Made by a program: the position numbers and the translations under genes. This document shows positions 51,206 through 64,000 of a stretch of 64,000 nucleotides of DNA, in pieces (within the stretch, counting starts at the first letter, position 1; each line of letters begins with the position of its first letter). The DNA is taken from positions 1 to 64,000 of the forward strand of contig NZ_JAKZEW010000008.1 in NCBI RefSeq assembly GCF_022548875.1, in the 5' to 3' direction. The notes under the pieces were generated by a model. It did not search any database and was not told where the DNA came from. It worked only from the letters and a program-made list of their open reading frames with translations. The DNA is from Glycomyces sp. L485. GTDB lineage: Bacteria > Actinomycetota > Actinomycetes > Mycobacteriales > Micromonosporaceae.

Positions 51206-52324
51206 TCAGGACATGTCGAGCGCGAGCCGCCGACCGGCGAGCCCTCGCGGGCGGTCCGCGACCCAGTCGCCCACTGTTCGGAGCACCGAGGCCGCCGCGC
51301 CCTCGTCGCCGAGGACCAGCGGTACGCCCTCGTCGGCTCCGAGGCCGATCCCGGGGTCGATCGGGATCCGCCCCAGCAGCGGGACCTCGTACCCGAGTTC
51401 GGCCGTCAGGGTCGCGGCCACCTGAGCGCCGCCGCCCGAACCGAACGGCTCCCATCTCGATCCGTCGGGCAGCTCGGCCCAGGCCATGTTCTCGACGACG
51501 CCGACGATCCGCTGCTTGGTCTGGAGTGCAACGGTTCCGGCGCGTTCGGCGACCTCGGCGGCGGCGAGGTGCGGAGTGGTCACCACCAGCGATTCGGCGT
51601 TCGGGAGCATCTGCGCGAGCGTGATCTGCACGTCCCCGGTGCCCGGCGGCATGTCGACCAGCAGCACGTCGAGGTCGCCCCAGAAGACGTCCACCAGGAA
51701 CTGCTCCAAGGCCCGGTGCAGCATCGGCCCCCTCCAGAGCACCGGAGCGTTCTTCTCGGTGAACATCCCCATCGAGATCACCTTCACCCCATGCCCGACC
51801 GGCGGAATGATCATCCGGTCCACCTGCACCGGCATGGTGCGCACCCCGAGCGCCCGCGGGATCGAGTGCCCGTAGATGTCCGCGTCCAGCACCCCGACCG
51901 AGAGGCCGCGACGCGCCAGCGCCGCGGCGAGGTTGGCGGTGACGCTCGACTTTCCGACCCCGCCCTTCGCCGACGCGACGCAGTAGACGCGAGTCAGCGA
52001 CGCCGGTTCGGCGAAGGGGACGGTCCGCTCCTCTCCCCCGCCTTTGAGCCGCTTTCGCAGGTCGGTCCGCTGCTCGTCGGTCATCACGTCCAGTTCGACC
52101 GCGACCGAGGCAACGCCGGGCACCTGTTCCACCGCGGCGGTCACGTCGGCGACGATCTTCTCGCGCAGCGGACAGCCCGACACGGTGAGCGCGACGGTCA
52201 CCGTGACCGCGCCGGCGTCGACCGCCACGTCCCGGACCATGCCCAGCTCGGTGATCGGCCGGTGGATCTCCGGGTCCTGGACGGTCGCCAGCGCCGCGGT
52301 GACCCGTTCTTTCAGATCGCTCAT
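51206..52324 (-). CDS. mrp: Mrp/ApbC-type Fe-S carrier ATPase
   Basis: This 372-residue protein has an N-terminal MIP18/DUF59 domain (about 1-90) and a P-loop ATPase with deviant Walker A SAKGGVGKSS (118-127). MGMFTEKNAPVLWRGPMLHR and LLVDMPPGTGDVQITLAQ are also visible. The family moves Fe-S clusters to apoproteins. The C-terminal CxxC of many Mrp proteins is absent (VVENMAWAELPDG), as I recall from mycobacterial Mrp. It overlaps korB by 4 nt and ends an Fe-S-rich gene run, so it could mature those enzymes. Confidence 0.93.
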   Translation of the reverse strand: MSDLKERVTAALATVQDPEIHRPITELGMVRDVAVDAGAVTVTVALTVSGCPLREKIVADVTAAVEQVPGVASVAVELDVMTDEQRTDLRKRLKGGGEERTVPFAEPASLTRVYCVASAKGGVGKSSVTANLAAALARRGLSVGVLDADIYGHSIPRALGVRTMPVQVDRMIIPPVGHGVKVISMGMFTEKNAPVLWRGPMLHRALEQFLVDVFWGDLDVLLVDMPPGTGDVQITLAQMLPNAESLVVTTPHLAAAEVAERAGTVALQTKQRIVGVVENMAWAELPDGSRWEPFGSGGGAQVAATLTAELGYEVPLLGRIPIDPGIGLGADEGVPLVLGDEGAAASVLRTVGDWVADRPRGLAGRRLALDMS

Positions 52325-53414
52325 CGTTCACTCCGTTCCGAGACGGTCCAGGTGTCGCCGCCGGCGATCACGTCCTCGATAGACGGCGGGTGTTGTTCTC
52401 GGGCGAGGACCGCCTGGTCGCGGACCTCGTCGTCGTACGCGGGCCGGGACACCGACCGGAAGACGCCGGTGACGGCGCAGGACAGGTCCTGTGTCGATAG
52501 TCGGGAGAGCGCGAACGCCGTGGACGGGTCCTCGTCGGCGGGGTCGTGGACCAGGATCGACTTCGAGTCGGCCTCCTCGCGCGGCAGCACGGCCAGTCGG
52601 CCGCGCGGGTCGCGGGCGACCACCTGCGTGCCGCGGCCGTCCTCGCCGACCGGTCCGAGATCGATCTCCTCTCCGGCGCGGAGCCGGATGACACGGCGGA
52701 GCGACTGGTCGGGGTCCTTCAGGGCGTCGAAGGCGCCGGCGTTGAAGACCGGGCAGTTCTGGTAGATCTCGACCAGTGCCGATCCGCGGTGCTCGGCGGC
52801 GGCGCGCAGCACCTCGGCGAGACCTTCCCGGTCGGAGTCCATCGACCGGGCCACGAAGCTCGCCTCGGCTCCGAGCGCCAGCGATACGGGGTTGAAGGGC
52901 GCGTCCGGCGATCCGACCGGGCTCGACTTGGTCACCATCCCCCGGTCGCTGGTCGGCGAGTACTGGCCTTTCGTGAGTCCGTAGACGCGATTGTTGAAAA
53001 GTAGGATCTTCAGGTTCACGTTCCGGCGGAGCGCGTGGATCAGGTGGTTGCCGCCAATCGACAGGGCGTCGCCGTCGCCGGTGATCACCCAGACCGACAG
53101 GTCCGGCCGCGCCACCGCCAATCCGGTCGCGATCGCGGGCGCCCGCCCGTGGATCGAGTGCATCCCGTAGGTGTCGAGGTAGTACGGGAACCGCGACGAG
53201 CAGCCGATCCCGGAGATGAAGACGATGTTCTCCCGGCGCAGGCCGAGTTCGGGGAGCATCGCCTGGACGGTGTTGAGGATGATGTAGTCCCCGCAGCCGG
53301 GGCACCAGCGCACTTCCTGGTCGGATCGGTAGTCCGCGGCCTTCTGGGGCTCGGGGTCGCTCGGGACCAGCGCGAGCCCCGAGCGCCGGCCGGCGGTCTC
53401 GGTGTCGACAGTGG

Positions 53415-53418
<4 letters not shown>
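52321..53418 (-). CDS. korB: 2-oxoacid:ferredoxin oxidoreductase, beta subunit
   Basis: This 365-residue subunit binds thiamine pyrophosphate. Motifs are VRWCPGCGDYIILN (Fe-S cysteines near the N-terminus), GIGCSSRFPYYLDTYG, ITGDGDALSIGGNHLIHALR and FNNRVYGLTKGQYSPTS. It forms the 2-oxoglutarate:ferredoxin oxidoreductase type complex with KorA, producing acyl-CoA and reduced ferredoxin. It overlaps both neighbours by 4 nt. Confidence 0.95.
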
Positions 53419-55258
<1,840 letters not shown>

Positions 55259-55262
<4 letters not shown>

Positions 55263-55597
55263 GACGCCTCGTATCCCGCGATGAAGAGCGTGTCCACGCC
55301 GATCTCGCCGGTCTTGCGCGCCCCGCCGGGCGCGCCGAGCGCGTCGCTCCGGCCCGGCAGCGGTTCGTGGAAGAACCGCGCGTTGTCGGCGATGAACTCG
55401 GCTTCGGTGTCGGGTACGTCGTCGGCCGGGAGGATCGCCTCCACCGGGCAGACCGGTTCGCAGGCGCTGCAGTCGATGCACTCGTCGGGGTGGACGTAGG
55501 CGCTCCGCGATCCGATGTAGATGCAGTCGACCGGGCATTCATCCACGCAGGCCCGGTCGGTCACATCGACGCACGCGGAACCGATGACAAAGGTCAT
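55259..55597 (-). CDS. fdxA: 7Fe ferredoxin (FdxA type)
   Basis: This 112-residue ferredoxin has cysteines C9, C17, C21, C25 and C40, C43, C46, C50 in the CxxxxxxxCxxxCP and CxxCxxCxxxCP patterns of 3Fe-4S/4Fe-4S (7Fe) proteins. The C-terminal 50 residues are the usual FdxA tail. It is the likely electron acceptor of KorAB, to which it is joined by a 4-nt overlap. It lies 27 nt after the ABC ATPase gene. Confidence 0.95.
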
Positions 55598-55624: not shown

Positions 55625-56385
<761 letters not shown>

Positions 56386-56389
<4 letters not shown>

Positions 56390-57252
56390 GCGCCCTCCCC
56401 AGGCAGCCACCGGTTTACGCGGCGGCCCACCCGCTCGATCGCCCAGGAGGTGGTGAATCCGAGGACTCCGATGGTGAGCATGCCGGTGACCACGCCCGCG
56501 TAGTCGAGCAGCGAGTAGGACATCCAGGTCCAGTAGCCGACGCCGAACTGGCCGGAGATCATCTCGGCGCTGATCACGCAGATCCAGGCGACGCCCATGC
56601 TCACCGACAGCCCGGAGAAGATGGACGGCATCGCGCCGGGGACGACGACGTGCAGCAGGATCTGGAAGCGGCTCGCCCCGAGGGTGCGGGCCGCGTCGGT
56701 CCACACCGGCGGGAGTGCCTTCATCGCGTGGATGGTCGCCACGGTGACCGGGAAGAAGGCCGCGAAGAAGGTGATGAACACGATTCCCTGCTCGCTGGTG
56801 GGGAACAGCAGGATGGCGATCGGGACCAGGGCGATGGCCGGGATCGGCCGGGCGACTTCGATGAGCGGCCGCACGAGGGCGGCGGCGATCTTCGAGCGCC
56901 CGACGGCGATCCCGGTCAGCACCCCTGCCAGGCCGGCCAGCGCGAATCCGGAGAGGATGCGGCCCAGGCTGGAGACGACGTGCTGATAGAACACCGCCGA
57001 CTCCAGCTGGGCCGTCATCGCGGCACCGACTTCACCGGGGCCGGGAATCTTGTCGAACCGCACCCACGCGACGACGTCGTACGACGTGAGCAGCTGCCAC
57101 ACCGCCAAGGCGGCGAGGATCGGGACCGCCGGCAGCAGTCGGCGGACGGCGTGAAGCGGCGATCGGCGCGGCCGCGTCGCCGTCGCCTCGGCCGCGGGCG
57201 GCGCGGCCGGGGAGGCGGGTTCGGCGGACAGCCGTTCCTGTGTGGTCGTCAT
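56386..57252 (-). CDS. ABC transporter permease (SsuC/TauC type)
   Basis: This 288-residue permease has a 35-residue polar N-terminus and six hydrophobic segments. The SsuC-type EAA loop is DAARTLGASRFQILLHVVVP. It forms an importer with the ATPase and the lipoprotein that flank it. It lies 22 nt downstream of the lipoprotein gene. Confidence 0.94.
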
Positions 57253-57274: not shown

Positions 57275-58687
57275 TCACACGCGGTCGAGGGCGGCTTGGT
57301 AGTCGATGACCTCTGATCCGGTGTGTTCGGCGGCGTACGCCTCGGCGTCGGCGACGGTCGCGAACGGCAGGAGGGTCATGGTGTCCTCACCGTCGGGGTC
57401 GTGCACCCAGGTGGCGTAGTCGCCGAAGATGCGGGTTCCGGAAGCGGCGTCCGGGACGTAGAGCGCCCGGTACTGCCCGCCTTCGGCGACCAGGCGGAGC
57501 AGGCAGGTCGGGGTGGCGGCGACCTCGGTGGCGTCCGCTTCGGCCGGCCAGGCCTCGGAGGCGGTGGCGGGGTCGGCGACGTCGGCGTCGCAGACCTCGT
57601 CGTGGCCGGTGATCGCCGACGGGTTGGTCAGGGAGGTCTTGAGCGCGTCGTATTCGGAGCCGTAGAGCTCCTCGAGCGGCTCCTCGTCGACAAAGTCGCC
57701 GAGGTCGAGCGTTTCGAGGGCGCCGAGTTCTTCGAGGAACGGCAGTCCGGTCTCGACGGCGCCGACGAGCTCGTCCTTGATGGTCAGGTCGAAGGTGACC
57801 GCGCCGCCCGGTCCGTTGTACAGGTAGACGACCTCTGGCGGCAGGCCGGTGGCTTCGGCGACCGTCATCGCGGCTTCGAGGGGGTGCTCGTAGAGGTATT
57901 CGGTGGCCTCTTTCTGTGCGGCCAGGAACGCCTGCAGGACTTCGGGGTGTTCTTCGGTGTAGGCCTCCGACGCGACCACGCCGTGGAAGGTGGGGACGCC
58001 GGTGTCGCCGTCGTGGAGGAGGCGGCCCTCGCCGGAGAAGATGACCCGCTGTGGGAAGGGCACGAACTGGGCCAGTGCCGCGACCTGTTCGCTTTCGAGG
58101 GCGGTGACGCCGACCGGGGGGTCCTGGCCGAGGATCTCGACGTCCTCGGGCGACATGCCGTCCGCGTCGAGGGCGCTGACCAGGTTGCCGTGTGCGGTAG
58201 AGCCGAGGCTGGTCGAAATGATCCCGCCTTCCAGGTCGGCGAGGGTCTTCGCGTCGGACGAGGTCGGGACCACGATCTGGTTGAGCGAGCCGCGGAGGTT
58301 GTAGCCGGTGACGCTTACCCAGTCGGTCTTGACGTCGCCGAGTTCGGCGGTCTTCGCGCCGTTGACCGACAGCGGGTAGTCGCCCATCGAGCCGATGTGC
58401 ACCTTCCCGGCGATCATCTCGGCGGTCAGCGGCGGGCCGGAGGCGAAGTCGTGCCAGGTCAGGTCGTAGGTCTTGCCGGTCTCCTCAGCGGCGGCGGCGA
58501 GGTGCTCGTCGAGCAGTCCCAGCTCCCGCATGAGGGTGCCGGCGGTGACGGTGTTGATGGTCTTCGACTGGTAGCCGATGGCGACCGGGACGGTGCCGTC
58601 CTCGGCGCCGCCTGCAGCGCTACAGGCGGTGGTGCCGAGCACGGCCGCGGCGGCGAATGCGGCGGCGGCCTTTCGGGTGATGTTCAT
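57275..58687 (-). CDS. SsuA-like binding lipoprotein with NosL-like tail
   Basis: This 470-residue protein has a lipobox at C22 (LGTTAC) and an NMT1/SsuA-type binding domain (about 35-330), with IGYQSKTINTVTAGTLMREL, GSMGDYPLSVNGAK and ISTSLGSTAHGNLVSAL. A C-terminal portion (about 395-470) reads TCLLRLVAEGGQYRALYVPD, then MTLLPFATVADAEAYAAEH. This resembles the end of NosL-type copper chaperones. Usual SsuA/TauA proteins are about 330 residues, so the extension is extra. The ligand is unknown. Confidence 0.82.
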   Translation of the reverse strand: MNITRKAAAAFAAAAVLGTTACSAAGGAEDGTVPVAIGYQSKTINTVTAGTLMRELGLLDEHLAAAAEETGKTYDLTWHDFASGPPLTAEMIAGKVHIGSMGDYPLSVNGAKTAELGDVKTDWVSVTGYNLRGSLNQIVVPTSSDAKTLADLEGGIISTSLGSTAHGNLVSALDADGMSPEDVEILGQDPPVGVTALESEQVAALAQFVPFPQRVIFSGEGRLLHDGDTGVPTFHGVVASEAYTEEHPEVLQAFLAAQKEATEYLYEHPLEAAMTVAEATGLPPEVVYLYNGPGGAVTFDLTIKDELVGAVETGLPFLEELGALETLDLGDFVDEEPLEELYGSEYDALKTSLTNPSAITGHDEVCDADVADPATASEAWPAEADATEVAATPTCLLRLVAEGGQYRALYVPDAASGTRIFGDYATWVHDPDGEDTMTLLPFATVADAEAYAAEHTGSEVIDYQAALDRV

Positions 58688-58699
58688 GTGAGGAGTCCT

Positions 58700-58927
58700 T
58701 CAGCGCAGGAGGTAAGGGATGTTGACGGTCACGGCGTCGACGGGGCAGCGGGCGGCGCAGGGGCCGCAGTACCAGCACTCGTCGACGTGCATGTAGGCCT
58801 TGCCGGTCTCGGGGTGGATCGCCAGGGAGTCCAGCGGACACATGTCGACGCAGAGGGTGCAGCCGTCGATGCACTTCTCTTCGTCGACGGTGACGGGTAC
58901 ATCGGCGCGGGAGTTCGCTTGAGCCAT
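58700..58927 (-). CDS. Two-cluster ferredoxin, AprB-like
   Basis: This 75-residue protein has two 4Fe-4S motifs: C19, C23, C26, C30 (CIDGCTLCVDMCP) and C51, C54, C57, C61 (CWYCGPCAARCP). The first has the CxxxC spacing, and the second the CWxC motif, reminiscent of AprB, the electron-transfer subunit of adenylylsulfate reductase. It probably carries electrons to or from the flavoprotein at 59879-61648. It lies 34 nt downstream of the HEAT gene and 12 nt upstream of the lipoprotein gene. Confidence 0.9.
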   Translation of the reverse strand: MAQANSRADVPVTVDEEKCIDGCTLCVDMCPLDSLAIHPETGKAYMHVDECWYCGPCAARCPVDAVTVNIPYLLR

Positions 58928-58961: not shown

Positions 58962-59882
58962 TCAGGCGTGATGGTCGGGGTGGTCTTCCAGGGCGATGCG
59001 GGCGAAGGCGCGGACGTCGGCGTCCACGTCTCCTTGGGCGCGCAGCAGGGCCTCGCGGACGTGCGGGTGTCCGGCCAGCCGCGGCATGAGCGCCTTCACC
59101 GCGGCCTTGCGCACGTCGAGGTTCGGATCGGTGGAGGCCGTGATCAGGGGGTCTACTGTGGCTGAGACGTTCGATGCGGCCAGTGCGGTGGCCGCGGCCT
59201 GCCGGACTTCCCAGGAGGGGTCGTCGAGGGCCCGCACCGCGAGTCCGGCCGCGTCGTCGGTGCAGCCGGTCTGTGCCAGGGCGGCCAGCGAGGCGGCTCG
59301 GACCAGCGGGTCGTCGTCGTCGTGCATCCGGGTGAGCGTGGCGATCCCGCGCGGGTCGCCGACGGCGCCGATGCCGCGGGCGGCGGCGATCCGCACCCAT
59401 GGCGAGGGGTCGCCGGAGGCGGCGGCGAGGCCGTCGAGGTCGTCCAGGGAGACCATCCCGAGCACTGCCTCACGGCGCGCGCGCTCGTCGGGGTCGCGCA
59501 GGATCGAGCCGAGTTCGGCCGCGCCGGTGAGTCGGTGCCGCCACAGGGCTCCGATGGCCGCGACCCGGATCGCGGCCTCCGAGTGGTCGAGCGCCGCCCT
59601 GAGGCCGGACTCGAACTCGGGGCTCGGCTCGATGACCTCCCGCAGTTCGCGCAGCAGATCGGCGGCGCGGTCGCGCACCGCGGCGTCGGCGTCGAGGAGC
59701 GCCGCGGCGAAGACCGGTGAGGCCTCCTTCCAGTCGTCGGCGGCCTCGCTGAGCACCGAGAGGGCGGTGCGGCGCACCTCGGGGTCGGGGTCGGCGAGAT
59801 AGGAGGCCAGCTCCTCGACTTCGGGGGCCTCGTCGACGAGTTCCAGCAGGGCCAGGATCCGGCCGCTCTGCGCCGCGCTCAT
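58962..59882 (-). CDS. HEAT-repeat protein of the redox operon
   Basis: This 306-residue, all-helical protein has about eight HEAT/PBS-lyase-type repeats, such as DPDPEVRRTALSVLSEAA, DHSEAAIRVAAIGALWRH, DPSWEVRQAAATALAAS and DPNLDVRKAAVKALMPR. No enzyme motif is seen; a scaffold or assembly role for the flavoprotein-ferredoxin pair is inference. ATG at 59882 overlaps the flavoprotein stop (ATGA) and has GGAGG seven bases upstream. Confidence 0.85.
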   Translation of the reverse strand: MSAAQSGRILALLELVDEAPEVEELASYLADPDPEVRRTALSVLSEAADDWKEASPVFAAALLDADAAVRDRAADLLRELREVIEPSPEFESGLRAALDHSEAAIRVAAIGALWRHRLTGAAELGSILRDPDERARREAVLGMVSLDDLDGLAAASGDPSPWVRIAAARGIGAVGDPRGIATLTRMHDDDDPLVRAASLAALAQTGCTDDAAGLAVRALDDPSWEVRQAAATALAASNVSATVDPLITASTDPNLDVRKAAVKALMPRLAGHPHVREALLRAQGDVDADVRAFARIALEDHPDHHA

Positions 59883-61648
59883 CGCCATGCCTCCGCGAGC
59901 TCGGTGCCGCGCGGTGCGGGCGCGTCGGGGACGCCGTCGGGCCGGACGAAGCCGGGCACCGGGACGATGTACGGCGCGACCGGCCGCCGGTCGAACCGCA
60001 TCTGCTCGTTCGACGGGTCCTTGCTGAGGTTGAGGTGGCAGAACCAGTTCGCGTCGTCTTGGACCGGCAGGTCGTCGCGGGAGTGGTAGAGGCCCCAGCG
60101 GCTCTCGGTGCGAGTGAGCGAGGCGCGGGCGGCCATCTCGGCGCAGTCGCGAATGAAGGTGACCTCGGCGCACCGCATCAGCTCGTGCGGGGTGCGGGCG
60201 CCCATCTGGGCGATGTCGACACGCATCCGCTCGAACGCCTCGACTCCGAGTGTCAGGTAGCGCTCGGTCTTGGGCGGCTGGAGGTAGTCGTTGACGAAGC
60301 GGCGCAACTTGTACTCCACTTGGGGCTGGGGTGGTCCCTCCGGGTTGGACGCCGGCCGGTAGATCAGGTCGTGAGCGGCCTCGATCTGATCTTCGGGGAG
60401 TTCGGGACGGGCCGCGGTCTTGGCGTACGACGCGGCGTCCTCGCCGGCGATGTCGCCGTAAACGAACGCGCCGATCATGTAGTTGTGCGGCACGCAGGCC
60501 ATGTCGCCGGCGGCGTACAGGCCTGGGACGGTGGTCCGGGCGTGCTCATCGACCCACACGCCGGAGGCGGAGTGGCCGCTGCACAGGCCGATCTCGGAGA
60601 TGTGCATCTCGATGTCGCGCTCGCGGTAGTCGGTGCCGCGGCCGGCGTGGAAGGTGCCGCGCGTGGGCCGCTCGGTGGTGTGCAGGATCCCCTCGATCTC
60701 GCCGATCGTGGTGTCGGGTAGGTGGCTGAGCTTGAGGTAGATCGGCCCGCGGGAGCTGTCGAGCTCACGCTTGACCTCGGCCATCATCTGGCCGGACCAG
60801 TAGTCGCAGTCGACGAACCGGTTGCCTTCACCGTTGACCTGGTAGCCGCCGAACGGGTTGGCGACATAGGCGCAGGCCGGTCCGTTGTAGTCCTTGATCA
60901 GCGGGTTGATCTGGAAGCATTCGATTCCGCTGAGCTCGGCGCCCGCGTGGTAGGCCATGGCGTAGCCGTCGCCGGCGTTGGTCGGGTTCTCGTAGGTGCC
61001 GTAGAGGTAGCCGCTGGCCGGGAGGCCGAGCCGTCCGCAGGCGCCGGCGGCCAGGATGACCGCGCCGGCCGAGACCGTGACGAACTCGCCGGTGCGGGTG
61101 TCGAACCCGACCGCGCCGACCGCCCGGCCGTCCTCGGTGAGCACCCGGACCGGCATCACCCGGTTCGTCATCATGACGTTGGCGCGCACCTTGCGCGAGC
61201 GGAGCTCGCGGTAGAGGACCTTCTTGACTTCCTTGCCCTCCGGCATCGGCAGCACGTAGCTCCCGGACCGGTGGACCTTGCGGACGGCGTACTCGTCGTG
61301 CTCGTCCTTCTCGAACTTCACGCCGTAGGACTCCAGACGCTGCACCATCTCGAAGCCGCGAGTGGCGGTCCGGTGGACGGTCCGCTGGTTGACGATGCCG
61401 TCGTTGGCGACGGTGATGTCGGCGACGTAGTCCTCGGGGGTGGCCTTGCCGGGGACGACGGCGTTGTTGACGCCGTCCATGCCCATCGCAAGCGCGCCGG
61501 AGTGCCGGACATGGGCCTTCTCCATGATCAGCACCGACGCGCCGTGACGTGCGGCGGTGAGCGCCGCCATCGTGCCGGCGGTGCCGCCGCCGACGACGAG
61601 CACGTCGCACTCTAGGCGGCGCCGGTCGTCTACCTGCGGGATCTGCAT
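59879..61648 (-). CDS. AprA/fumarate-reductase-like flavoprotein
   Basis: This 589-residue protein of the succinate dehydrogenase/adenylylsulfate reductase flavoprotein family has FAD motif DVLVVGGGTAGTMAALTA (about 15-32). RHSGALAMGMDGVNNAVVPG, VILAAGACGRLGLPASGYLY and TTVPGLYAAGDMACVPHNY are also visible. HISEIGLCSGHSASGVWVDE and the C-terminal helical domain resemble AprA more than fumarate reductase. True APS reductase is unlikely, since no sat or dsr genes are near. An in-frame GTG at 61660 is an alternative start. The substrate is unknown. Confidence 0.85.
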   Translation of the reverse strand: MQIPQVDDRRRLECDVLVVGGGTAGTMAALTAARHGASVLIMEKAHVRHSGALAMGMDGVNNAVVPGKATPEDYVADITVANDGIVNQRTVHRTATRGFEMVQRLESYGVKFEKDEHDEYAVRKVHRSGSYVLPMPEGKEVKKVLYRELRSRKVRANVMMTNRVMPVRVLTEDGRAVGAVGFDTRTGEFVTVSAGAVILAAGACGRLGLPASGYLYGTYENPTNAGDGYAMAYHAGAELSGIECFQINPLIKDYNGPACAYVANPFGGYQVNGEGNRFVDCDYWSGQMMAEVKRELDSSRGPIYLKLSHLPDTTIGEIEGILHTTERPTRGTFHAGRGTDYRERDIEMHISEIGLCSGHSASGVWVDEHARTTVPGLYAAGDMACVPHNYMIGAFVYGDIAGEDAASYAKTAARPELPEDQIEAAHDLIYRPASNPEGPPQPQVEYKLRRFVNDYLQPPKTERYLTLGVEAFERMRVDIAQMGARTPHELMRCAEVTFIRDCAEMAARASLTRTESRWGLYHSRDDLPVQDDANWFCHLNLSKDPSNEQMRFDRRPVAPYIVPVPGFVRPDGVPDAPAPRGTELAEAWR

Positions 61649-61652
61649 CTGA

Positions 61653-62468
61653 TCACTCACTTTCTTCCGGGAGTTCAACGGGCTCGGGTAGGAACGGGTT
61701 GTGGACGGGGTGGCGGACGAGGAGGGTCGAGAGCGATATCCGGTCGCCGCGGAAGCGGAGGAATTCGAGGTCGACCGGGCGCCCGTCGTCGGTGTGGGCG
61801 AGGCGCTCCACATAGAGCAGCGGTGAGCCGACACGGGCTTCGAGGACGCCGGCCACGGTCGGGTCGGCCGCCACCGATTCGATGACGACCCGGGCCTCGC
61901 CGAGGGGCAGCCCGAGCTCGGACTCGATCAGCGAGAACACGTCGCGGTGCTCCAGGTCGTGCATGAGCAGCGGCTCTCCCACGTCGGCGGGCAGGTAGCT
62001 GGCGTCCAGCGACACGGCCTCGCCGTCGAGCATCCGGAGCCGCTCCAAGGCCATCACCGGTGCGCCCGGCTCGATGCGCAGCCGCTCGGCGACCAGGGGC
62101 ACGGCGGGGACGAGCTCGGCGAGCAGGATCCGGTTGGTGACCCTCGGGTACCGGGAGTCGAACGTCTCGGCCAGGCCGCGGAGCCGGTCCAGCCCGTGGT
62201 CGGCCTTCGCCGAGACCACGAACGTGCCGGAGCCTTGGATTCGGGTGACGAGGCCTTCGTCCCGCAGCAGCGCCAGTACTTCGCGGACGACGTTGCGGCT
62301 GGCGTTGAACTCCAGGGCCAGGTCGGTCTCCGACGGCAGCGGCAGGGCGCCGTAGACGCCCTCGAGGATCCGGGTGCGCAGTACGTCCCGGATGCGGCGT
62401 ACCGGCCCGGAGCGTCGGCCGCGGGCCGCCCTCGGTACCGTCTTGGTGGCTTTCATGGAAGTGATCAT
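61653..62468 (-). CDS. GntR/HutC-family regulator
   Basis: This 271-residue regulator has an N-terminal winged helix (VYGALPLPSETDLALEFNAS followed by RNVVREVLALLRDEGLV) and a C-terminal UTRA ligand domain (about 110-265, PVMALERLRMLDGEAVSLD). It is the first gene of the redox operon and overlaps an alternative flavoprotein start, so it probably controls the whole run. ATG at 62468 and 62456 are both possible. Confidence 0.92.
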   Translation of the reverse strand: MITSMKATKTVPRAARGRRSGPVRRIRDVLRTRILEGVYGALPLPSETDLALEFNASRNVVREVLALLRDEGLVTRIQGSGTFVVSAKADHGLDRLRGLAETFDSRYPRVTNRILLAELVPAVPLVAERLRIEPGAPVMALERLRMLDGEAVSLDASYLPADVGEPLLMHDLEHRDVFSLIESELGLPLGEARVVIESVAADPTVAGVLEARVGSPLLYVERLAHTDDGRPVDLEFLRFRGDRISLSTLLVRHPVHNPFLPEPVELPEESE

Positions 62469-62631: not shown

Positions 62632-63630
62632 TCAGGCGAGGGCGAGAACGCCCGCGAGGGAGGCCCCGGCGATGAACAGCGTCGAGACCGAGGCCACCAC
62701 CAGCGCCGGGCCGCTTCTCGCGGCGAGCGCGCGCAGCCGGACCGCGGTTCCCATCCCGAACAGCGCGGCCGCCAGCGTCACCTGTTGGAGCACCTCGGCG
62801 ACCGCCAGGAACCATTCGGGCAGCAGCCCGGTCGAGCGCAGGGCGACGCAGAGCACGAACCCGGCGACGAAGACCGGCACCACCGGCGGCACGGCGCCCC
62901 CGGTGCGCCGCGCCCTTCGGCGCCGCCAGGCGGCGACCGCCAGCACCACCGGGGCCAGCAGGAGGACCCGGGTCAGCTTGACGACGACCGCGAGCCCCAA
63001 CGCGAAGGCGCCGGCGCCGCCGGCCGCGCCGACGACCTGCCCGACCTCGTGCACGCTCGCCCCGACCCAGATGCCGAACGACGTCGCCGAGAGCCCCAGC
63101 GGCTCCTGCAGCAGGGGCAGCCCGACCATGGCGACGGTCCCGAAGAGGGTCACCATGCCGACGGCGACGGCGACGTCCTCTTCGTCAGCCCCGGCGTGCT
63201 CCTCCATCGCGGCGATCGCGGAGGCCCCGCAGATCGCGAACCCGGTCCCCAGGAGCAGGCTCCGCGGACCGCCGAGCCCCAGCCGGAGCCCGAGCAGCGT
63301 CGTACCCGCCAGGGTGAGCCCGAGGACCGCGGCCACCAGGCCGAGTACGGGCAGGCCGAGCGAGAGCACCGCGCCCGCCGAGAGGCCGAGGCCGAGGAGT
63401 ACGACGCCGATGCGGAGCACGCGTTTGGTCAGGGCGGCCAGCGGGACGCGGGTGCCGGTTCGGATCACGGCGATGTTTCCCGCCACGAGGCCGAGCAGGA
63501 CCGACCAGGTCAGCAGGCCGACCACCGGCACGAGCGAGTGCGCGGTCCAGGCGAGGAGGACGCCGAGCGCCAACCATCCGACCGCGACCGTGGAGCCGCG
63601 CGTGACCGTCTGTTTCAGGGGCGCCGTCAT
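62632..63630 (-). CDS. YeiH-family (UPF0324) putative sulfate exporter
   Basis: This 332-residue membrane protein has about ten hydrophobic segments. Family motifs include GFAICGASAIAAMEE and FGIWVGASVHEVGQVVGAAG. The YeiH family is annotated as putative sulfate exporter on weak experimental ground. ATG at 63630 is chosen; the longer frame lacks a hydrophobic start. It lies 163 nt upstream of gntR on the same strand and may be a separate unit, divergent from lysR. Confidence 0.88.
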   Translation of the reverse strand: MTAPLKQTVTRGSTVAVGWLALGVLLAWTAHSLVPVVGLLTWSVLLGLVAGNIAVIRTGTRVPLAALTKRVLRIGVVLLGLGLSAGAVLSLGLPVLGLVAAVLGLTLAGTTLLGLRLGLGGPRSLLLGTGFAICGASAIAAMEEHAGADEEDVAVAVGMVTLFGTVAMVGLPLLQEPLGLSATSFGIWVGASVHEVGQVVGAAGGAGAFALGLAVVVKLTRVLLLAPVVLAVAAWRRRRARRTGGAVPPVVPVFVAGFVLCVALRSTGLLPEWFLAVAEVLQQVTLAAALFGMGTAVRLRALAARSGPALVVASVSTLFIAGASLAGVLALA

Positions 63631-63701
63631 GCGCTCAACGTACGGACGGCCCCGGCCATGCGGTAGCCGTCGATTCGGCATCCCTGCCATACACTTCACG
63701 C

Positions 63702-64000
63702 ATGGCAAATGTCCCCGACCTTGCGGATCTCCAGTTGCTCGCCGATGTCGTCGCACACGGGAGCATCGGAGCGGCGGCCGCCGCTCACGGGCTGTCCCAG
63801 CCCCAGGCGAGCCGCCGGATGACCCGTCTCGAACGGCAGCTCGGCGTGCCTATCCTCGTCCGCTCGAACCGGGGCACGACTCTCACTCCCGCGGGAAAAG
63901 TGGTGGTGGACTGGGCGACGCTGCTGCTCAACGCCGCGCAGAACTTCTCGGCGTCGGTCGCCATGCTGCGCACGACGCAGCGGAACGACACGTCGGTGGC
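63702..64000 (+). CDS. LysR-family regulator, N-terminal part
   Basis: The open frame from ATG 63702 runs off the right edge after 99 codons. It holds the LysR helix-turn-helix, DLQLLADVVAHGSIGAAAAA then HGLSQPQASRRMTRLERQLG, and the following VPILVRSNRGTTLTPAGK. It is divergent from the YeiH gene with a 71-nt spacer, the usual arrangement for a regulator of that transporter. Confidence 0.9.
   Translation, partial: MANVPDLADLQLLADVVAHGSIGAAAAAHGLSQPQASRRMTRLERQLGVPILVRSNRGTTLTPAGKVVVDWATLLLNAAQNFSASVAMLRTTQRNDTSV

Follow-up and report, generated by a model that had tools for sequence, protein, structure and literature searches.

Why would the receptor of an ABC importer carry a second domain resembling a copper chaperone, and what would such a receptor bind? 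The question is raised by a gene in the window, that is, the whole 64,000-nt stretch of Glycomyces sp. L485 DNA analyzed here (contig NZ_JAKZEW010000008.1, positions 1 to 64,000), whose product had been described in a first-pass annotation, given without a strand, as a substrate-binding lipoprotein fused to a NosL-like domain. The gene, located on the minus strand, has the following features:

57275..58687, minus strand: complete gene encoding a substrate-binding protein of 470 aa (open reading frame and translation; SsuA_fam match over residues 37-338)
58598..58687, minus strand: signal peptide, residues 1-30, read from the sequence
within 58598..58687, minus strand: putative lipoprotein cysteine, residue 22, in an atypical lipobox (TTAC), read from the sequence
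57668..58597, minus strand: binding domain of the SsuA/TauA type, residues 31-340 (NMT1, TIGR01728, PDB relatives 3e4r, 2x26, and 6ssy)
57278..57646, minus strand: C-terminal domain with a NosL fold, residues 348-470 (AlphaFold, Z score to 7og7, PF05573 in homologous tails)

Residue 22 is probably the lipoprotein cysteine of the receptor, and the last ~120 residues of the 470-aa protein form a separate domain, hereafter the tail. Taken singly, the sequence of the receptor is only suggestive of NosL, with PF05573 matching at 17.9 to 19.0 bits (E 0.0042 at 17.9 bits), below the Pfam cut-off of 24. The same profile scored 28.4 and 29.0 bits over profile positions 22-125 in two homologs from one actinobacterial genus, exceeded the cut-off in tails from Paraburkholderia, Methylocystis, and Leptolyngbya (25.8, 27.8, and 29.2 bits), and reached 30.7 bits in a tail from one genome outside the class. 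NosL matched 15 of the 33 tails scanned (best E 1.5e-6) and was the sole recurrent Pfam family, no other family matching more than two of them. An AlphaFold model of the tail, built from the 33-sequence tail alignment, had a pLDDT of 91.9 and a pTM of 0.84; the full-length receptor, modeled with 6 sequences, was poor outside the tail (pLDDT 56.9). With the tail model as a query, Foldseek ranked NosL chains first and MerB second, NosDFYL complexes were among the top structural matches, and VIA-align gave a Z score of 13.6 to the NosL crystal structure 7og7 (rmsd 2.4 over 114 residues), compared with 8.3 for MerB and 3.8 for the best unrelated row. NosL and MerB have one fold in common, which originated from a duplicated treble clef (PMC4999995). 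The tail profile found no match among PDB sequences, and hhalign comparison of the tails with three actinobacterial NosLs, made with shallow alignments, was weak (E 0.005, probability 7%), so the NosL assignment rests on the Pfam scores of the homologs and on the fold. On these grounds, the resemblance to NosL is confirmed to be far beyond chance, and both the proposed domain composition and the proposed fold comparison of residues 330-470 with NosL were borne out.

NosL-like domains were also encountered in another setting: two loci encode a DeoR-type HTH regulator fused to a cysteine-containing NosL-like domain, one of which passes the NosL cut-off (L127:1123-1704, plus strand; 28.4 bits), whereas the other fails it (L129:1441-2031, minus strand; 18.5 bits). 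A 106-aa open frame (L030) with a 40% match to the tail was taken as a chance match, as most conserved positions are missing from it.

The fusion is not peculiar to this genome. The near relatives of the window in genome collections are Glycomyces and Nocardia. A tail-profile search of an Actinomycetia sample of 395 genomes matched 49, and in 48 of these the tail lies inside an open reading frame of substrate-binding protein size; the remaining match (G445) was rejected as seemingly spurious, since it has an internal stop and no module. Comparison of homologous loci showed the tail inside the receptor open reading frame throughout the family. In related genomes, SsuA-type proteins other than the fused receptor match the binding domain only, so the tail belongs to a fused-receptor subfamily. 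The fusion and its gene module were also found in Alpha-, Beta-, and Gammaproteobacteria and in one cyanobacterium, the proteobacterial distribution being drawn from plasmid records. Such records came from Paraburkholderia, Bradyrhizobium, Acinetobacter, Methylocystis, Methylobacterium, Rhizobium, Mesorhizobium, Variovorax, and the cyanobacterium Leptolyngbya; plasmid-borne modules often include a DUF971 protein and once Mrp. The profile search suggested in the first-pass annotation recovered the fusion in other genomes, and the two-domain architecture is present across phyla. Annotated records use only generic names for the module components, and no description of the fusion or the module was found in the open-access literature searched. 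The fusion of a substrate-binding protein to a NosL fold is a real, widespread domain architecture and apparently an undescribed one.

Two further records seem to contain a broken form of the fused receptor: that of Sinorhizobium americanum has its pieces in different frames, with no CDS listed (L154:6001-6432), and that of Acidithiobacillus caldus is interrupted by an IS element between pieces (L137:4950-7507). In one Paraburkholderia locus (L155:10500-13251), more sulfur genes come after the module, namely those for a luciferase-type oxidoreductase, a 3-mercaptopropionate dioxygenase, and a rhodanese.

To which pathway the receptor belongs is indicated by its neighbors in the window:

51206..52324, minus strand: Mrp/ApbC-type P-loop protein, Fe-S carrier (PF10609, 264 bits)
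52321..53418, minus strand: 2-oxoacid:ferredoxin oxidoreductase, beta subunit (TIGR02177, 249.5 bits; cut-off 261.9)
53415..55262, minus strand: 2-oxoacid:ferredoxin oxidoreductase, alpha subunit (TIGR03710, 651 bits)
55259..55597, minus strand: second ferredoxin, adjacent to the 2-oxoacid:ferredoxin oxidoreductase (translation with cysteine motifs)
55625..56389, minus strand: ABC ATPase of the TauB type (PF00005, 106.7 bits)
56386..57252, minus strand: ABC permease of the TauC/SsuC type (PF00528, 84.6 bits)
58700..58927, minus strand: 4Fe-4S dicluster ferredoxin, 75 aa (Fer4_7, 42.3 bits)
58962..59891, minus strand: HEAT-repeat protein, start codon approximate (HEAT_2, 137 bits; C-terminal part of NF010374)
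59879..61648, minus strand: PRK08275/PRK13800-type FAD flavoprotein with distant similarity to AprA (NF006131, 891.6 bits; cut-off 587)
61653..62468, minus strand: GntR/UTRA regulator of the cluster, in a conserved position (UTRA, 119 bits; GntR, 56 bits)
62632..63756, minus strand: YeiH/UPF0324 membrane protein, module membership uncertain (PF03601, 195 bits)

In transcription order on the minus strand, the receptor gene is followed by those of the permease and the ATPase. The best NCBIfam matches of the permease are TauC, NtrB, SaoP, and SsuC and that of the ATPase is the taurine ATPase, all below their cut-offs. With variations, the recurrent gene order is GntR regulator, ferredoxin, substrate-binding protein, permease, ATPase, flavoprotein, and HEAT-repeat protein. 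NF006131, the PRK08275-type flavoprotein, was detected in 46 of the sampled genomes, all 46 being among the 48 with the fusion (Fisher p 3e-58, a value in which related genomes are counted separately and independence is overstated). The two fusion genomes without the flavoprotein are G107, which has a sulfatase-type locus, and G195, whose locus (L094) encodes the importer without a flavoprotein or sulfatase module within the stretch read and counts against the explanation favored below. Across the computed data set, linkage of the receptor to either a flavoprotein/ferredoxin/HEAT or a sulfatase/FGE/SulP module is nonetheless near-obligate.

Some components vary between loci. In Tsukamurella, one 2682-bp CDS encodes the flavoprotein, and a separate HEAT gene is missing (L153:9869-12550, plus strand), as in the NF010374 flavoprotein-HEAT fusion. 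The block that follows the ATPase gene in the window (51206-55597, comprising the 2-oxoacid:ferredoxin oxidoreductase, the second ferredoxin, and the Mrp-type protein) is whole in G004 and G267 and present in parts in Nocardia, G418, and G143; the second ferredoxin is similarly placed in all five. A YeiH/UPF0324 gene is also found near the cluster in G004 and Nocardia.

In the second genomic context, found in two phyla (Actinomycetota and, in the Proteobacteria, among Betaproteobacteria), a sulfatase, FGE, and SulP replace the flavoprotein. The importer is accompanied by a GntR regulator and by a sulfatase in G107, G206, G056, and a Gordonia plasmid; FGE was seen in the G107 and Gordonia loci, and the loci of G107, G206, and G056 have a SulP transporter (the G206 sulfatase and SulP and the G056 sulfatase were assigned by near-identical translations to scanned G107 proteins). 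A Paraburkholderia plasmid has the genes arranged as GntR regulator, fused receptor, permease, ATPase, arylsulfatase, FGE, and SulP. Because two processing enzymes are paired with one importer type, the cargo is predicted to be a sulfate ester or a sulfonate. A gyrB-type gene was seen inside three of the loci combining a sulfatase with the fused receptor (L078:11412-13484, minus strand; L080:4394-6316, plus strand; L130:555-2492, plus strand).

The binding domain itself points in a similar direction. It passes the NMT1 cut-off (PF09084, 53.6 bits; cut-off 20.5) and matches TIGR01728 (SsuA_fam) over residues 37-338 with 114.2 bits, short of the cut-off of 163.5. Some SsuA-type binding proteins bind nitrate or pyrimidines instead, which, together with the SsuA_fam score below the cut-off, weakens the organosulfur reading of the ligand. 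In SsuA and TauA, the sulfonate is held by four Gln/Gly/Gly/Ser-Thr positions, the last of which corresponds to residue 164 and is a main-chain contact in TauA (PMC3839906, PMC6906117). The window protein has Q40, G84, G102, and T164 at these positions, and the equivalents of the first three are kept in 65/69, 65/69, and 57/69 family members, respectively (equivalence of Q40 was assigned by motif position, outside the printed alignment), while most members have Ala or Thr at position 164. As the sulfonate-contact positions are largely kept, an oxyanion fits better than a metal complex. We consider the protein most likely an uptake receptor for sulfur-containing organic molecules, with a predicted ligand and probably an ordinary receptor function. 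The earlier suggestion that the ligand is a metal complex found no support in these positions or in the organosulfur-related neighborhoods. It had also been noted that the idea would be refuted if the extension were common to all close homologs with known non-metal ligands; the extension is indeed constant throughout the receptor subfamily, which comes close to that case, although the ligands of these homologs are only predicted.

If the ligand is an organosulfur anion, does the tail still handle metal? Binding of Cu(I) by NosL is thought to use a CXM motif (PMC6530538). This motif occurs in none of the 69 tails examined, and 56 of the 69 lack any Met; the NosL fold has lost its copper motif in this family. 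These counts and the organosulfur neighborhoods leave the proposal that metal status is sensed during uptake unsupported. The counts also speak against the least probable of the readings considered, namely that the domain has retained a chaperone role and supplies a partner enzyme with copper. Identity of fold with NosL would suit such a role, and FGE of the variant loci is a copper enzyme; FGE is, however, missing from most loci and, in the sulfatase-type loci, is probably cytoplasmic. The nos_propeller profile had no match in the host genome, nor in the control genomes.

Two cysteines of the tail are of interest here:

57590..57592, minus strand: Cys366, placed at the CXM cysteine of NosL by alignments that are weak at that level; the Met of CXM is missing
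57503..57505, minus strand: Cys395, in the first turn of the next helix, present or absent jointly with Cys366

Both cysteines are present in 32 of the 69 homologs and neither in 37, with no tail having a single one. On a tree of the binding domain, the state of the pair needs 5 changes, at least 4 of them on well-supported branches; a second tree covered Actinomycetia alone. In an independent-pairs test, all 4 pairs agree (p 0.125), this number being too small for significance. Two isolated cysteines in an extracytoplasmic protein are usually joined in a disulfide. Since the pair changes jointly and repeatedly in an extracytoplasmic protein, a disulfide is the simplest reading, and co-occurrence suggests that Cys366 and Cys395, where present, most likely form a disulfide stabilizing a former metal site; another metal or redox site is less likely. 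A new thiolate site for Cu(I), Zn, or Hg within the old NosL site, through which metal status modulates uptake, is rather unlikely: the cysteines are kept or lost together, map to the ancestral metal site of the treble clef or its immediate vicinity (PMC4999995), and include one in the place of the CXM cysteine, but the tail alignment has no further conserved Cys, Met, or His accompanying the pair, and over half of the members have neither cysteine, with the operon unchanged. Asp363 is another potential ligand restricted to tails with the cysteines, whereas His455 is kept also in those without. Less likely still is a redox switch by which the pair would control ligand release in response to oxidation or reactive sulfur. 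The perfect pairing and the Fe-S and flavin redox enzymes encoded in the operon would suit it, but many members with that same operon have neither cysteine, and the module showed no dedicated thiol reductase.

The tail as a whole occurs in all members recovered from the different phyla and has invariant positions, Trp380 among them, which argues that it is under selection. A vestigial tail that no longer has any role is therefore very unlikely, although the metal motif is lost and the hairpin and the cysteines have been lost repeatedly. NosL docks on the ABC complex NosDFY (PDB entries), and by this analogy docking or a structural function is the most likely role of the tail in the receptor. 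We regard as improbable a working sensory or ligand-handling domain, in which the cysteine pair is a thiolate metal or redox site that gates organosulfur uptake and, in a widespread, undescribed pathway coupled to the receptor, the AprA-like flavoprotein/ferredoxin enzyme and the sulfatase act as interchangeable processors.

Overall, we favor, with somewhat better than even confidence, a receptor of an SsuABC/TauABC-like importer of organosulfur anions with a NosL-fold tail devoid of the copper motif. The cleft of the receptor would capture a sulfonate or sulfate ester and pass it to the permease for import, and inside the cell the compound would be processed by the flavoprotein/4Fe-4S system or, in other loci, by the sulfatase. 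Reduced ferredoxin would here probably be supplied by the adjacent 2-oxoacid:ferredoxin oxidoreductase (52321-55262). With less certainty, the tail may serve for docking, as NosL does on NosDFY, or for structure. Conserved across phyla, and found in all genomes of the sampled class that have the partner flavoprotein, the fusion would mark a coherent organosulfur-uptake system; the module could offer a handle on an organosulfur pathway in soil and plant-associated bacteria, and it places a NosL/MerB fold in use on an importer receptor after loss of the copper motif.

Among known systems, NosL (PF05573), the copper chaperone of nitrous oxide reductase, resembles the tail in its two-repeat fold over the full domain, in weak but significant sequence similarity, in its extracytoplasmic location, and in its association with an ABC transporter. 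In contrast to NosL, which is a stand-alone lipoprotein, the tail is fused to a binding protein, lacks CXM, and has neighbors other than nos genes. The organomercurial lyase MerB has the NosL/MerB fold in common with the tail, but the structural match is lower (Z 8.3), and no functional or genomic link to mercury is seen here. The partner flavoprotein and ferredoxin are distantly similar to AprA and AprB of adenylylsulfate reductase (AprAB), whereas the flavoprotein reaches only 148.7 bits against the AprA profile (TIGR02061; cut-off 641.75) and belongs to NF006131/NF010374. Compared with SsuA and TauA, the receptor has ~130 extra residues as a NosL-fold domain and scores below the SsuA_fam cut-off, and its enzyme partners in most loci are not SsuD or TauD; nevertheless, it has the same binding-domain family and kept sulfonate-contact positions, and the importer in the window resembles SsuABC and TauABC in its TauC/SsuC-like permease and TauB-like ATPase.
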